DNA of 36,239 nucleotides from Candidatus Poribacteria bacterium (GTDB lineage Bacteria; Poribacteria; WGA-4E; WGA-3G): assembly GCA_021295715.1 (NCBI GenBank), contig JAGWBV010000018.1, forward strand, positions 1-36,239, given 5' to 3'. This document shows, in pieces, positions 29,093 to 32,156 of the stretch. Both the position numbers and the translations under genes were made by a program. Below the pieces are notes generated by a model that worked only from the letters and a program-made list of their open reading frames with translations, had not been told where the DNA came from and did no database searches. Every line of letters begins with the position of its first letter. Position 1 is the stretch's first letter.

Positions 29093-29881
29093 TTACGTAT
29101 CACCAGGGATCTCGGGCCAATTATGCTCCGGTGAATATCCTAAATCCGCTTCTGCCGGTTTCCACGCAAAACGGGTATCCGCACGACCCGCGACGGCATT
29201 ATATGCGCCATACTTTATCGTCTCTGCTTCAATCGCGCGGGCAACACAGTGTGCAACATCCCTCGGATCCACGTAAACGAACCAAGGATCCTTCACAACT
29301 TCAGGAGCTGCGGGTCCCGGATTCTGTCCGTCTCCATCTATGACCCCTGGGCGGACATGGATCACGTCCAACCCATGCGCTTGATGATACGCCGCGCCGA
29401 TCCGCTCGCCGAGGTATTTCGCCAGCGAGTAATAAAGATCTCCCGGACCGAACTGGAAGTCGTCGTCCACCTCGTAAGGCAATTTTGCGCTTGGAGCCGG
29501 AGGACACGCCGAAATACTTGAGATGTTAACCAACTTTTTGACACCCTGCTTTACACAGGCTTCCGCAACGTTCCATGTCCCTTTCACCATGACATCCGCA
29601 AACAGCGAAGCTGGCTTATCAGACCGTCCCCGCACCAGAGCGACAAGATGGACGACAGCGTCTTGTTCCGCGCACGCTGCCTCGATTTCTGCAGCATTTG
29701 TCACATCTGCCTTGATAAAAGTCGTGCCTGCAACCGTCCGATCCAGTTCAACAATATCCGTTAGCGTCAGTTCATATTCGCCACGCAACCGATCAATAAT
29801 AAATTGTGCCAGATACCCATTCGCACCGGTGATCAAAATATTTTTAATTTTCCTTGCGGGTCGGTCAGGTGAATTCAGCAT
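29093..29881 (-). CDS. NAD-dependent epimerase/dehydratase
   Basis: This extended short-chain dehydrogenase acts on a nucleotide sugar or similar substrate in the cytoplasm. It has the NAD motif ILITGANGYLAQF at its start, DAVVHLVALV, ISSISACPPAP and the catalytic YYSLAKYLGE (YxxxK), then VRPGVIDGDG. ATG 29881 gives 262 residues; the frame is open back to GTG 29944. Both candidate starts lie in family B repeat sequence, and normal homologues begin just before NILITG, so the first 14 residues (MLNSPDRPARKIKN) may be repeat-derived. A relatively short C-terminal domain. Substrate unknown. Confidence 0.83.
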   Translation of the reverse strand: MLNSPDRPARKIKNILITGANGYLAQFIIDRLRGEYELTLTDIVELDRTVAGTTFIKADVTNAAEIEAACAEQDAVVHLVALVRGRSDKPASLFADVMVKGTWNVAEACVKQGVKKLVNISSISACPPAPSAKLPYEVDDDFQFGPGDLYYSLAKYLGERIGAAYHQAHGLDVIHVRPGVIDGDGQNPGPAAPEVVKDPWFVYVDPRDVAHCVARAIEAETIKYGAYNAVAGRADTRFAWKPAEADLGYSPEHNWPEIPGDT

Positions 29882-29928
29882 TTGAAGGGCTTCCTCGTAT
29901 ATCCGCCTGCGCCGCTGTTGCAGGCTAC
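29842..29928 (-). repeat. Family B repeat forming the 5' end of the epimerase gene
   Basis: Read on the minus strand it begins GTAGCCTGCAACAGCGGCG, continues CAGGCGGATATACG and ends CCTGACCGACCCGCAAGG then AAAATTAAA. It is nearly identical over about 90 bases to the copy at 30303-30392, 370 bases away in the same orientation. Confidence 0.85.
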
Positions 29929-29957
29929 AATCACCAAAAAACACGCCTCTACGCGTT

Positions 29958-30302
29958 TTAGCGCGCAGGTGGCCTCATCTGCTCATAGAGCGCGTTGTTA
30001 AATCCGACAAAGAAACTATCTCCACTTCGCACTGTAGGCGCGCGCAGGTTACCGCTCCGTCCCATTACCACTTTTAGGATTGATTCCTGTGTGTCTTCAG
30101 TTGGCACAAAGGTTTCCACGCGTCTCCCTTTCGCAACAACGATTCGCTCAGCACTGCCCATTAACTCCCATACCGCTGCTGCGTCCATTCGTTCTTTTCG
30201 GGCATCCGTCCGACGCTCTGGTTGTAATTCGTGTTCGTCAAGAAACTCTTGAACTTTTTTACAGGAGTTTCAGCTATTCCGAAAATAAATCCAATCTACC
30301 AT
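29958..30302 (-). CDS. ArsC-family selenoprotein (UGA read as Sec)
   Basis: Read through the in-frame TGA at 30272-30270, the frame from ATG 30302 gives 114 residues beginning MVDWIYFRNS-U-NSCKKVQEF. A UxxC motif stands at residues 11-14, where ArsC/Spx/YffB thioredoxin-fold proteins have CxxC. The rest (QEFLDEHELQPERR, RSGNLRAPTVRSGDSFFVGF, NNALYEQM) fits that fold and length. NCBI annotates an 'ArsC family (seleno)protein' group of this kind, which I recall but cannot check. Stopping at TGA would leave 10 residues, and starting at Met39 would lose the redox motif. A repeat-borne AAGGA precedes the ATG. A SECIS-like hairpin follows the TGA. A redox role is likely; arsenate reduction is not implied. 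Confidence 0.8.
30238..30254 (-). promoter_or_regulatory. Putative bacterial SECIS hairpin
   Basis: On the minus strand TCAAGA (30252-30247) pairs perfectly with TCTTGA (30243-30238) around loop GTT (30246-30244). GT/AC can extend the stem past a three-base bulge. The loop begins 23 bases after the TGA and its first base is G, which meets the bacterial SECIS pattern (loop 16-37 bases downstream, G in the first two loop positions). Confidence 0.6.
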
Positions 30303-30392
30303 TTTTTAATTTTTCCTTGCGGGTCGGTCAGGTGAATCTGAGTCTGAACCTGCTTCCCCGTATATCCGCCTGCGCCGTTGTTGCAGGCTACT
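30303..30392 (-). repeat. Family B repeat before the ArsC-like gene
   Basis: Starts GTAGCCTGCAACAACGGCGC on the minus strand, continues AGGCGGATATACGGGG and ends CCTGACCGACCCGCAAGG then AAAAATTAAAA, abutting the ATG. It fills the gap from the Gfo/Idh stop to the ArsC-like start and supplies its Shine-Dalgarno. Confidence 0.85.
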
Positions 30393-30405: not shown

Positions 30406-31416
30406 CTAATTCAATTCTCTCACGTTCATAAATCTGCCGGTGTCTCGACTTTGGACCGCGGCATCAATTAGGGCGAGTGTCTCAATAGCATCAGCGAATG
30501 GCGAGCGAATCAGTGTTCTGTCGCCTGTTTCAATGGCACGTAACCATGCCCCGGATTTGTCTAAACCCAGACTATTTTCGGAAACCGCCGGTTCATTGAC
30601 CACCTCACCATTAAGGTATCCACGGATAACGTTATCCGTCATTTTCGCTTGTAATCGTAAATGGGGTCCGACGACTTCAACCTCAAAGCTAAATTGCTCG
30701 GTGCCACAATGATTCATGTGTGTTCCGAAAACGCCGTTGTCCAGTTGATAGGTCATCTGGATGGCATTTTCGGCATCGAATTCGGTTCGTTCCAACGCCA
30801 TGTTTTTAACAGCGAGCGCGTGGGCTTGCACAGGTTTCGGGTTTCCCATTACAAAACGCGCACAATCCAACACATGCACCGCCTGTTCCGGCAAGGGCCC
30901 CCCGCTTATCTCATACTGCAGAAACCAAGGCGACATACGGAAACTCAAAAAATAATCAACGGTACATACTGTCCGCACGAGGTGGACGGTTTCCGAAGCG
31001 ATTAACGCTTTCAGTTGTTCATAGAGCGGATGATAGCGGAGTTGGAACCCAACAGCAGCAATGACATCCGCTTCCTCAATACATGCCAGGCATTTCCTGC
31101 CCTCAACCATATCCAAGGCAGGCGGTTTTTCAACCATCACAGGAATACCGCGGTCGCACGCCATCTGGATCGGTTCAAGCCGGACAGGGGGTGGTGTCGT
31201 GATAACCACCCCATCCATGTCCACATCGAAAAAGGTATCTAAAGCGGTAGTGGCAAGTGCTGATTCGGTATGCGATGCGAGTTCACGCGCCGCCTCAAGC
31301 CTTACATCATGGACAGCGACAACACGCGCACCGTAATCGGTTACCGCCGCCTGATGATGTCTTCCCATACTGCCAGCACCGATGATGCCTATTGCTAACG
31401 ATTTTTGATCGTTCAT
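30406..31416 (-). CDS. Gfo/Idh/MocA-family oxidoreductase
   Basis: A second NAD(P)-dependent dehydrogenase of this family, 336 residues from ATG 31416. It has IGIIGAGSMGRHHQ at the N-terminus, GVVITTPPPVRLEP, the EKP signature in VMVEKPPALDM, VGFQLRYHPLYEQLK and the substrate-domain GGPLPEQAVHVLDCARF with the conserved Asp and His. The ATGA overlap with the upstream stop (31413-31415) decides the start over GTG 31437. It shares only family-level motifs with the dehydrogenase at 1897. Together with the sugar-binding-fold gene before it, it may act on a carbohydrate, which is inference from context. Confidence 0.88.
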   Translation of the reverse strand: MNDQKSLAIGIIGAGSMGRHHQAAVTDYGARVVAVHDVRLEAARELASHTESALATTALDTFFDVDMDGVVITTPPPVRLEPIQMACDRGIPVMVEKPPALDMVEGRKCLACIEEADVIAAVGFQLRYHPLYEQLKALIASETVHLVRTVCTVDYFLSFRMSPWFLQYEISGGPLPEQAVHVLDCARFVMGNPKPVQAHALAVKNMALERTEFDAENAIQMTYQLDNGVFGTHMNHCGTEQFSFEVEVVGPHLRLQAKMTDNVIRGYLNGEVVNEPAVSENSLGLDKSGAWLRAIETGDRTLIRSPFADAIETLALIDAAVQSRDTGRFMNVRELN

Positions 31417-32156
31417 GGTATTTTGAGGTTTCCCCACGTTACCGCGAGTTTCCCTTTCCGTTCAACGGGAAAGATGTTGAACTCTGGGGTAGTAACGAAA
31501 ACGTTATCGAATTGCGCGTAATGCGCAGCAGCACCCCGATTGCCACCGCGCGTATAGAAGCCAGTTTTGCCGTTTTCAAACCTTTTTTCACCATCCGTCC
31601 ATTCTCCCACAAAAGCGAGACTACTCCATTTGGCACCGACTTTGCCGAGATATGCCTTAAATTTGTAATGCTTACGCACCTCAAACTTTATGCGGTACCA
31701 AATATGCTGCTTGCGTTTTCTTTCATCTGCGAAAGGCGTTATTTCGACCGACCAGTTGTCCTCAACGTTTCCGTGCCATTGAATACGTTGGGGAGCGTGT
31801 TTAGAACCCGCGGTTGAAATTTCGTGCATGTAGAAATTCTTGTTGTCCTTTGCGTGGAAAACGAACCCCAATGAACCGCCATTTTTTGCGTTGAAATCAG
31901 CATAGTAATCAAATTCTTCGGGGAGATTGGTAACACTGAGTCCCGCACCACCGCCCCAAATGTCAAGGACTTTCCTTCCAAGCACATCATGCCGGGTGTC
32001 ATTATCTTCAACACTCCAACTCACTTGCGGTGCCCATTTGTCGAGATTAACGCCAAGACGCTCAAAGTCATCATGGAACAGAATCTCAGCATAACTAATG
32101 CCGACACACAGCGTCAGCGTGATAATCAGAGTGGTGTACCCTGTATAGGCCTTCAT
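31413..32156 (-). CDS. Secreted concanavalin-like (DUF1080-type) protein
   Basis: A 247-residue protein with a clear signal peptide (TTLIITLTLCVGISYA). The body begins ILFHDDFERLGVNLDKWAPQ, then SVTNLPEEFDYYADFNAK, GSLGFVFHAKDNKNFY, WYRIKFEVRKHYKFKAYLG and GKTGFYTRGGNRGAAAHYAQ. These are the strand signatures of DUF1080/3-keto-disaccharide hydrolase-like jelly rolls. A sugar-binding or glycosidase-like role is likely. The C-terminus GKLAVTWGNLKIP is the shared tail motif. It is translationally coupled (ATGA) to the Gfo/Idh gene that follows. The 108-base gap upstream, before the discoidin gene, holds only repeat-like sequence. Confidence 0.8.
   Translation of the reverse strand: MKAYTGYTTLIITLTLCVGISYAEILFHDDFERLGVNLDKWAPQVSWSVEDNDTRHDVLGRKVLDIWGGGAGLSVTNLPEEFDYYADFNAKNGGSLGFVFHAKDNKNFYMHEISTAGSKHAPQRIQWHGNVEDNWSVEITPFADERKRKQHIWYRIKFEVRKHYKFKAYLGKVGAKWSSLAFVGEWTDGEKRFENGKTGFYTRGGNRGAAAHYAQFDNVFVTTPEFNIFPVERKGKLAVTWGNLKIP

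Follow-up and report, generated by a model that had tools for sequence, protein, structure and literature searches.

Selenocysteine (Sec)-containing relatives of arsenate reductase have been recorded in surveys of marine DNA. Table 2 of the Global Ocean Sampling survey lists an 'Arsenate reductase 2', assigned to cd03032 and bearing a UxxC motif, with 42 Sec-containing and 238 Cys-containing sequences (PMC2398784), and a Sec-containing arsenate reductase from the Sargasso Sea has the motif UxxS (PMC1088965). A 2026 review, citing the Global Ocean Sampling study, lists the NCBIfam family NF041106 (ArsC_rel_Se_1) as an arsenate reductase-like protein with one Sec in a UxxC motif; NF041106 and 'Arsenate reductase 2' are equated through that citation and not through a comparison of sequences (PMC13188914). 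The functions of such selenoproteins are described in the same review as largely uncharacterised. It alone named NF041106 in our literature search, and a text search of it for Poribacteria gave 0 hits. The phylum is best known from sponges. The majority of sponge-symbiont bins are reported to contain SelA and SelB together (PMC5649159), and a literature search for Poribacteria together with selenoprotein or selenocysteine turned up no description of an ArsC-like protein with Sec.

The gene considered here, which we call Sec-ArsC, lies on the minus strand at 29958..30302 of the window, the whole 36,239-nucleotide stretch of poribacterial DNA that was analysed. A scan for close relatives agrees with this origin, all 27 named loci that it gave being MAGs of Poribacteria. 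With a probability of about 0.94 we read it as encoding an NF041106 selenoprotein with Sec at the UGA 30272-30270, because the family match, the conservation of the TGA, constraint at the level of both RNA and coding, the Sec machinery of the lineage and the predicted fold all point in that direction. What the first-pass annotation, made from the letters alone, had called a probable selenoprotein can now be upgraded to a very probable member of a recorded family.

The reading frame, the family and the in-frame TGA

The minus-strand frame runs from an ATG at 30302 to a TAA ending at 29958 and comprises 114 residues, with a single internal TGA at 30270..30272. Read as Sec, this codon gives a protein that begins MVDWIYFRNS-U-NSC and places Sec11-Asn-Ser-Cys14 as the UxxC motif; Cys14, encoded by the TGT at 30261..30263 on the same strand, is proposed as the resolving cysteine. 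A Shine-Dalgarno-like AAGGA lies upstream of the start codon. Under the standard code the sole open frame remaining is an ATG-initiated piece of 76 residues (29958-30188), which would be without the UxxC motif. The frame, TGA, motif, length, stop codon and upstream AAGGA described in the first-pass annotation are thus all present in the sequence, and its statement that gene callers would report only the 76-residue piece agrees with the mechanical frame list, which shows 29958-30188 alone.

When the product was searched against protein families with Cys in place of U, as had been proposed, it matched NF041106 ("ArsC family (seleno)protein") with a score of 126.3 bits, over the curated cut-off of 85, and the alignment covers positions 1-107 of the 107 in the profile, running straight through the UGA. 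With a score over the cut-off along the full profile and a single Sec, encoded by UGA, in UxxC, the gene is, judged by its sequence, a further member of this already recorded selenoprotein family, from whose defining features (an arsenate reductase-like protein with one Sec in UxxC; PMC13188914) it shows no difference. In motif and fold class it is also like 'Arsenate reductase 2', but in Poribacteria we found the protein in the Sec form only, with no Cys at that site in 70/70 homologues, whereas the marine survey holds both forms (PMC2398784). The Sargasso Sea protein is likewise of the ArsC type and contains Sec but, with its UxxS, is a different form (PMC1088965).

Homologues were sought in a phylum set of 84 genomes, in a smaller set of 60 genomes that includes the window's own, and in a control set of 14 named genomes. 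NF041106 matches occur in 48/60 genomes of the smaller set, with one internal TGA in 48/48, and in 70/84 of the phylum set, with exactly one internal TGA in 70/70; 69 of these 70 matches exceed the cut-off, and the remaining one (G048) is partial and falls below it. The 14 phylum genomes in which no match was found include two from the same order (G042, G046). Three of the 14 control genomes gave an NF041106 match, 0 over the cut-off. In an alignment in which each of the 70 genomes is represented by a single locus, scripted placement puts the TGA at the same site and a Cys at +3 in every row. The first-pass annotation had named as evidence against itself close homologues with a sense codon other than Cys or Sec at this place and no hairpin: among the 70 there is neither Cys nor any other sense codon at the TGA site, and the hairpin discussed below is conserved with covariation.

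The same gene terminates in TGA in 11/70 homologues, so that TGA is also used as a stop in the lineage. With all pairs pooled, the nine codons ahead of the TGA have a pN/pS of 0.21 and codons 17-95 beyond it one of 0.28; both stretches are therefore coding and under purifying selection.

A bSECIS-like hairpin after the TGA

On the minus strand at 30238..30252 lies a hairpin with a 6-bp stem (UCAAGA/UCUUGA, pairing 30252-30247 with 30243-30238) and a GUU loop, for which codon invariance and covariation across relatives provide the evidence. The stem and the GTT loop had been noted from the sequence, but the distance of 23 bases after the TGA given there for the start of the stem is that of the loop: 17 bases separate the TGA from the stem, which starts at the 18th base, and 23 separate it from the loop. 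The shape rules for bacterial SECIS elements (legend to Fig. 2 of PMC13188914) call for a loop of 3-9 nt, a stem of 4-16 bp, a G in the first two loop bases and a UGA-to-loop distance of 16-37 nt, together with a search threshold of MFE <= -7.5 kcal/mol. The window hairpin, with its GUU loop, 6-bp stem and 23 nt, satisfies the shape rules but misses the threshold, at -4.2 kcal/mol for a 29-nt piece and -4.9 for the 47 nt after the UGA, and we therefore term it bSECIS-like rather than bSECIS. The 47-nt piece reaches -7.5 kcal/mol in 40/70 homologues.

The folding check that had been proposed thus bore out the shape, but the energy calculated from the window alone is no better than that of shuffled sequence (z = -0.44, with 62/200 shuffles equal or better), and 850/5000 synonymous re-draws of the window sequence hold a rule-fitting stem of at least 6 bp. 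A longer fold that includes the UGA region prefers another pairing, at -8.1, which a ribosome standing at the UGA would be expected to melt. Folding of the single sequence was for these reasons (the z value, the re-draws and the alternative longer fold) rejected as proof of a SECIS element. An Rfam search near the gene gave no SECIS-type match, the one match being to a snoRNA and below threshold. As the window alone is non-significant, the case for the hairpin rests on comparison.

Codons 7-11 after U, which in the window read CAA GAG TTT CTT GAC, provide that comparison. Across the 70 loci CAA and CTT occur in 70/70 each, GAG in 67/67 rows with Glu, TTT in 43/43 rows with Phe and GAC in 68/68 rows with Asp; the exceptions are three rows with Ala GCG at the Glu codon and two with Glu GAG at the Asp codon. 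Codon 9 also occurs as Val in 25 rows (GTT 14, GTA 8, GTG 3) and as Leu TTA in 2, so that not every hairpin position is fixed. Among rows carrying the commonest residue, all five codons have an entropy of 0, with no synonymous change, as compared with a mean of 0.79 of the expected entropy and a minimum of 0.35 for the 73 columns outside -1 to +16. A rule-fitting stem of at least 5 bp is found in 64/70 loci, and the longest such stem places its loop at +22 or +23 in 67/70 and at +29 in 3.

Covariation was tested on 64 distinct alignment rows and eight pairs, giving 512 cells, of which 94.7% are paired. Three of the eight pairs change on both sides (UA -> CG, GC -> UG, AU -> CG); four are invariant, and the top pair is broken in 9/64 rows. 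The covariation score of 0.121 is reached by 0/500 shuffles, as is the number of paired cells and the number of cells changed on both sides, while the other two of the five measures are reached in 23/500. Six versions of the hairpin slid along the alignment score lower, at most 0.054 for covariation, and are lower on all five measures, a comparison in which the tested structure is favoured, having been written down after the alignment had been inspected. The window itself forms one of the three outer pairs, as a U-G wobble, and adds one U-A pair to the stem. In 63/70 loci the folding energy is lower than the average of synonymous re-draws, a modest effect (mean z -0.92). Taken across relatives, the conservation of the TGA and the hairpin is far beyond chance.

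Selenocysteine machinery and the reading of the UGA

It had also been suggested that the genome be examined for selA, selB, selC and selD, and here the answer is divided between the lineage and the window's own draft. All four (tRNA-Sec being the product of selC) score over their curated cut-offs in five single-contig genomes among the 60, four from the genus (G005, G010, G022, G029) and one from the order (G044), each of which has a TGA-containing Sec-ArsC gene. A complete genome of the lineage without selA, selB or selC, which the first-pass annotation had named as evidence against itself, is not among these five. Over the whole set of 60, selA passes in 51 genomes, selB in 53, tRNA-Sec in 54 and selD in 54, as against 1, 2, 5 and 2 of the 14 control genomes; the gathering score for tRNA-Sec is the least specific of these, and matches that only narrowly exceed it could represent other tRNAs. 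Two genomes (G051, G055) have no selA, selB or selD over the cut-off and are also without a Sec-ArsC gene. Several genomes with the machinery, G046 for example, lack the gene, and Sec-ArsC is hence not universal among Sec users. Overall, the findings on Sec-ArsC point to Sec decoding as an enduring trait in much of the phylum Poribacteria.

In the draft genome from which the window comes (175 contigs, 96% complete) selB was found at C54:29721-31616 and selD on contig C29, where an in-frame TGA lies inside CAGUASK (locus L057 776-778); selA was not found and selC is truncated. The best selA candidate in this assembly reaches 47.8 bits, and none is over the cut-off. C18, the contig that holds the window, ends at 56805, and in three relatives selA lies beyond the matching point by 9.8 kb (G010), 8.0 kb (G033) and 1.5 kb (G024), which makes it probable, from this gene order, that selA lies past the contig end in an assembly gap; these three were chosen since selA is near Sec-ArsC in them, and a long distance separates the two genes elsewhere, for example in G005 and G022. 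The only long match to tRNA-Sec in the assembly stands behind selB (G000:C54:31679-31752, equal to L056 2680-2753) and holds 74 of the 90 bases, identical to those of relatives, beyond which the sequence continues abruptly at a point 15 bases ahead of the ATG of the next gene. We take that gene to be lipA. The last 16 bases of selC and the spacer are thus absent from this place, whereas six relatives that were compared have the full gene and a longer spacer, and the 3' end is not found elsewhere in the assembly at <=2 mismatches. Loss in assembly and a real deletion are both possible explanations of the lesion.

Among the selD matches over the cut-off listed from the 60-genome search, each has one TGA inside it. 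A regular expression for the SelD active site found it in 1/7 loci, and a looser script in 5/6 of those examined, the window's own genome among them.

A more conservative view of the locus would be that translation simply ends at the UGA and that the gene is a recent pseudogene, from which the 76-residue piece or nothing is made. In favour of this view, that piece is the only frame a mechanical list offers, the hairpin of the window is weak by itself, and the assembly holds neither an intact selC nor a findable selA. Against it stand the TGA in 70/70 homologues, a pN/pS of 0.21 upstream of that TGA, hairpin codons free of synonymous change among the commonest-residue rows and a family profile that passes straight through the UGA, and the 76-residue piece would be without UxxC; we regard this view as very improbable. 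Reassignment of UGA across the genome to some common residue would make an in-frame TGA in a conserved gene look identical, but the same gene ends in TGA in 11/70 homologues, selB, selD and tRNA-Sec matches are present in the lineage, and a conserved hairpin follows the TGA, so that such a reassignment seems scarcely credible.

Under the selenoprotein reading, a ribosome arriving at UGA 30272-30270 would insert Sec, directed by SelB, tRNA-Sec and the short hairpin whose apical loop, 23 nt downstream, starts with G. The resulting protein would consist of one thioredoxin-fold domain of the ArsC/Spx type, in which Sec11 immediately precedes helix 1 and Cys14 lies one turn inside that helix. The Sec selenolate would most probably then attack an oxidised substrate, with Cys14 resolving the adduct through a selenenylsulfide that a cellular thiol system would subsequently reduce. 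Both Sec insertion in living cells and this redox cycle, including the role of Cys14 (Cys in 70/70), are inferred.

Fold, possible function and neighbourhood

An AlphaFold model built with 24 homologues has a mean pLDDT of 91.6 and a pTM of 0.84 and sets Sec11 just before a helix spanning 12-23. Its best structure matches are to Spx (Z up to 9.4), followed by YffB, ArsC-family proteins and NrdH at Z 7-8, while glutaredoxins and glutathione transferases fall in the range 6-8; values under 8 may reflect a common arrangement only, and these fold lists do not separate ArsC from Spx, glutaredoxin or NrdH. Because the Sec/Cys pair sits in a thioredoxin-like fold, Sec-ArsC can be regarded, at somewhat better than even odds, as a small thioredoxin-like thiol/selenol reductase.

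If the gene does encode a selenoprotein, two more specific functions come into question. The first-ranked relative in both sequence and fold is Spx, which would make the protein a redox-sensing regulator that binds the alpha subunit of RNA polymerase by means of a Sec-Cys switch, and U/CxxC stands at the same place in both. The B. subtilis Spx structures 3gfk and 3ihq share the fold at Z 9.3-9.4, but identity is only 18-22%, Sec-ArsC is shorter, the sequence-profile match is weak (E about 0.001), and its alignment has a 4-residue gap in a loop that in B. subtilis Spx holds the alpha-CTD contact Gly52. The Spx-type NCBIfam models, moreover, score 12.3-20.8 bits against cut-offs of 75-159. A regulator of this kind is in our judgement improbable, and it stands a little below the other candidate, an arsenate reductase proper that reduces As(V), which we also think unlikely. 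R773-type ArsC has an arginine before the conserved proline, whereas the residue at this position is Ala in 24/24 aligned members. The Pfam ArsC model PF03960 gives 15.2 bits against a gathering threshold of 24, an arsenate reductase model is absent among the eight NCBIfam matches up to E = 1, and neither adjacent gene is an ars gene. On the other side, an ArsC-family fold is among the structure matches, and the Global Ocean Sampling survey does list the Sec-containing 'Arsenate reductase 2' with UxxC (PMC2398784).

A different kind of role is hinted at in a sister family. In two of its genomes (G037, G040; loci L058, L059) Sec-ArsC lies directly behind selA: one genome has 22 nt between the selA stop codon and the gene, and in the other the two genes share the 4 bases ATGA. 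The arrangement suggests co-translation with Sec synthesis; a third genome seen of that family (G042) has no Sec-ArsC match. For that sister family the adjacency is a hint that the protein may act close to Sec synthesis, the window's own gene being flanked by other genes. Since only the Sec form was found in the phylum, and given the position behind selA in those two genomes, it is tempting to speculate that Sec-ArsC serves selenium metabolism, for example by reducing a selenium intermediate used by SelD or SelA, or by passing it to them, although we hold this to be a tentative and rather unlikely proposal. As the functions of such selenoproteins are largely uncharacterised (PMC13188914), a protein that is found across the phylum in the Sec form, that adjoins selA in some members and that ordinary gene calling would truncate offers a usable entry point to them.

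The neighbours named in the first-pass annotation, a Gfo/Idh dehydrogenase and an epimerase, were borne out by Pfam: a Gfo/Idh/MocA oxidoreductase lies upstream (30406..31437) and an NAD-dependent epimerase/dehydratase downstream (29093..29944), both on the minus strand, and both are found in 38/38 loci of the genus, this one included. In other genera of the family Gfo/Idh occurs in 15/20 loci and the epimerase in 14/20, and in other families of the order the flanking pair occurs in 0/12, counts that are lower bounds, as many of these loci had flanks of ~1-1.5 kb. The neighbourhood was considered as a clue to function and rejected, the conserved flanks being read as shared ancestry and not as a functional link.

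Sec-ArsC is also flanked by a direct intergenic repeat, with one copy upstream (30301..30391, of which 30303..30391 is intergenic, minus strand) and a second downstream of the gene (29838..29928, minus strand); the repeat consists of two blocks, 95% and 92% identical, 463 apart. Its core, GCCTGCAACARCGGCGCAGGCGGATATACG, has 68 genomic copies at <=3 mismatches, and the reversed control has 0. The last part of the upstream copy holds the Shine-Dalgarno-like AAGGA, which, as part of the repeat unit, could act as a ribosome-binding site for the next gene.
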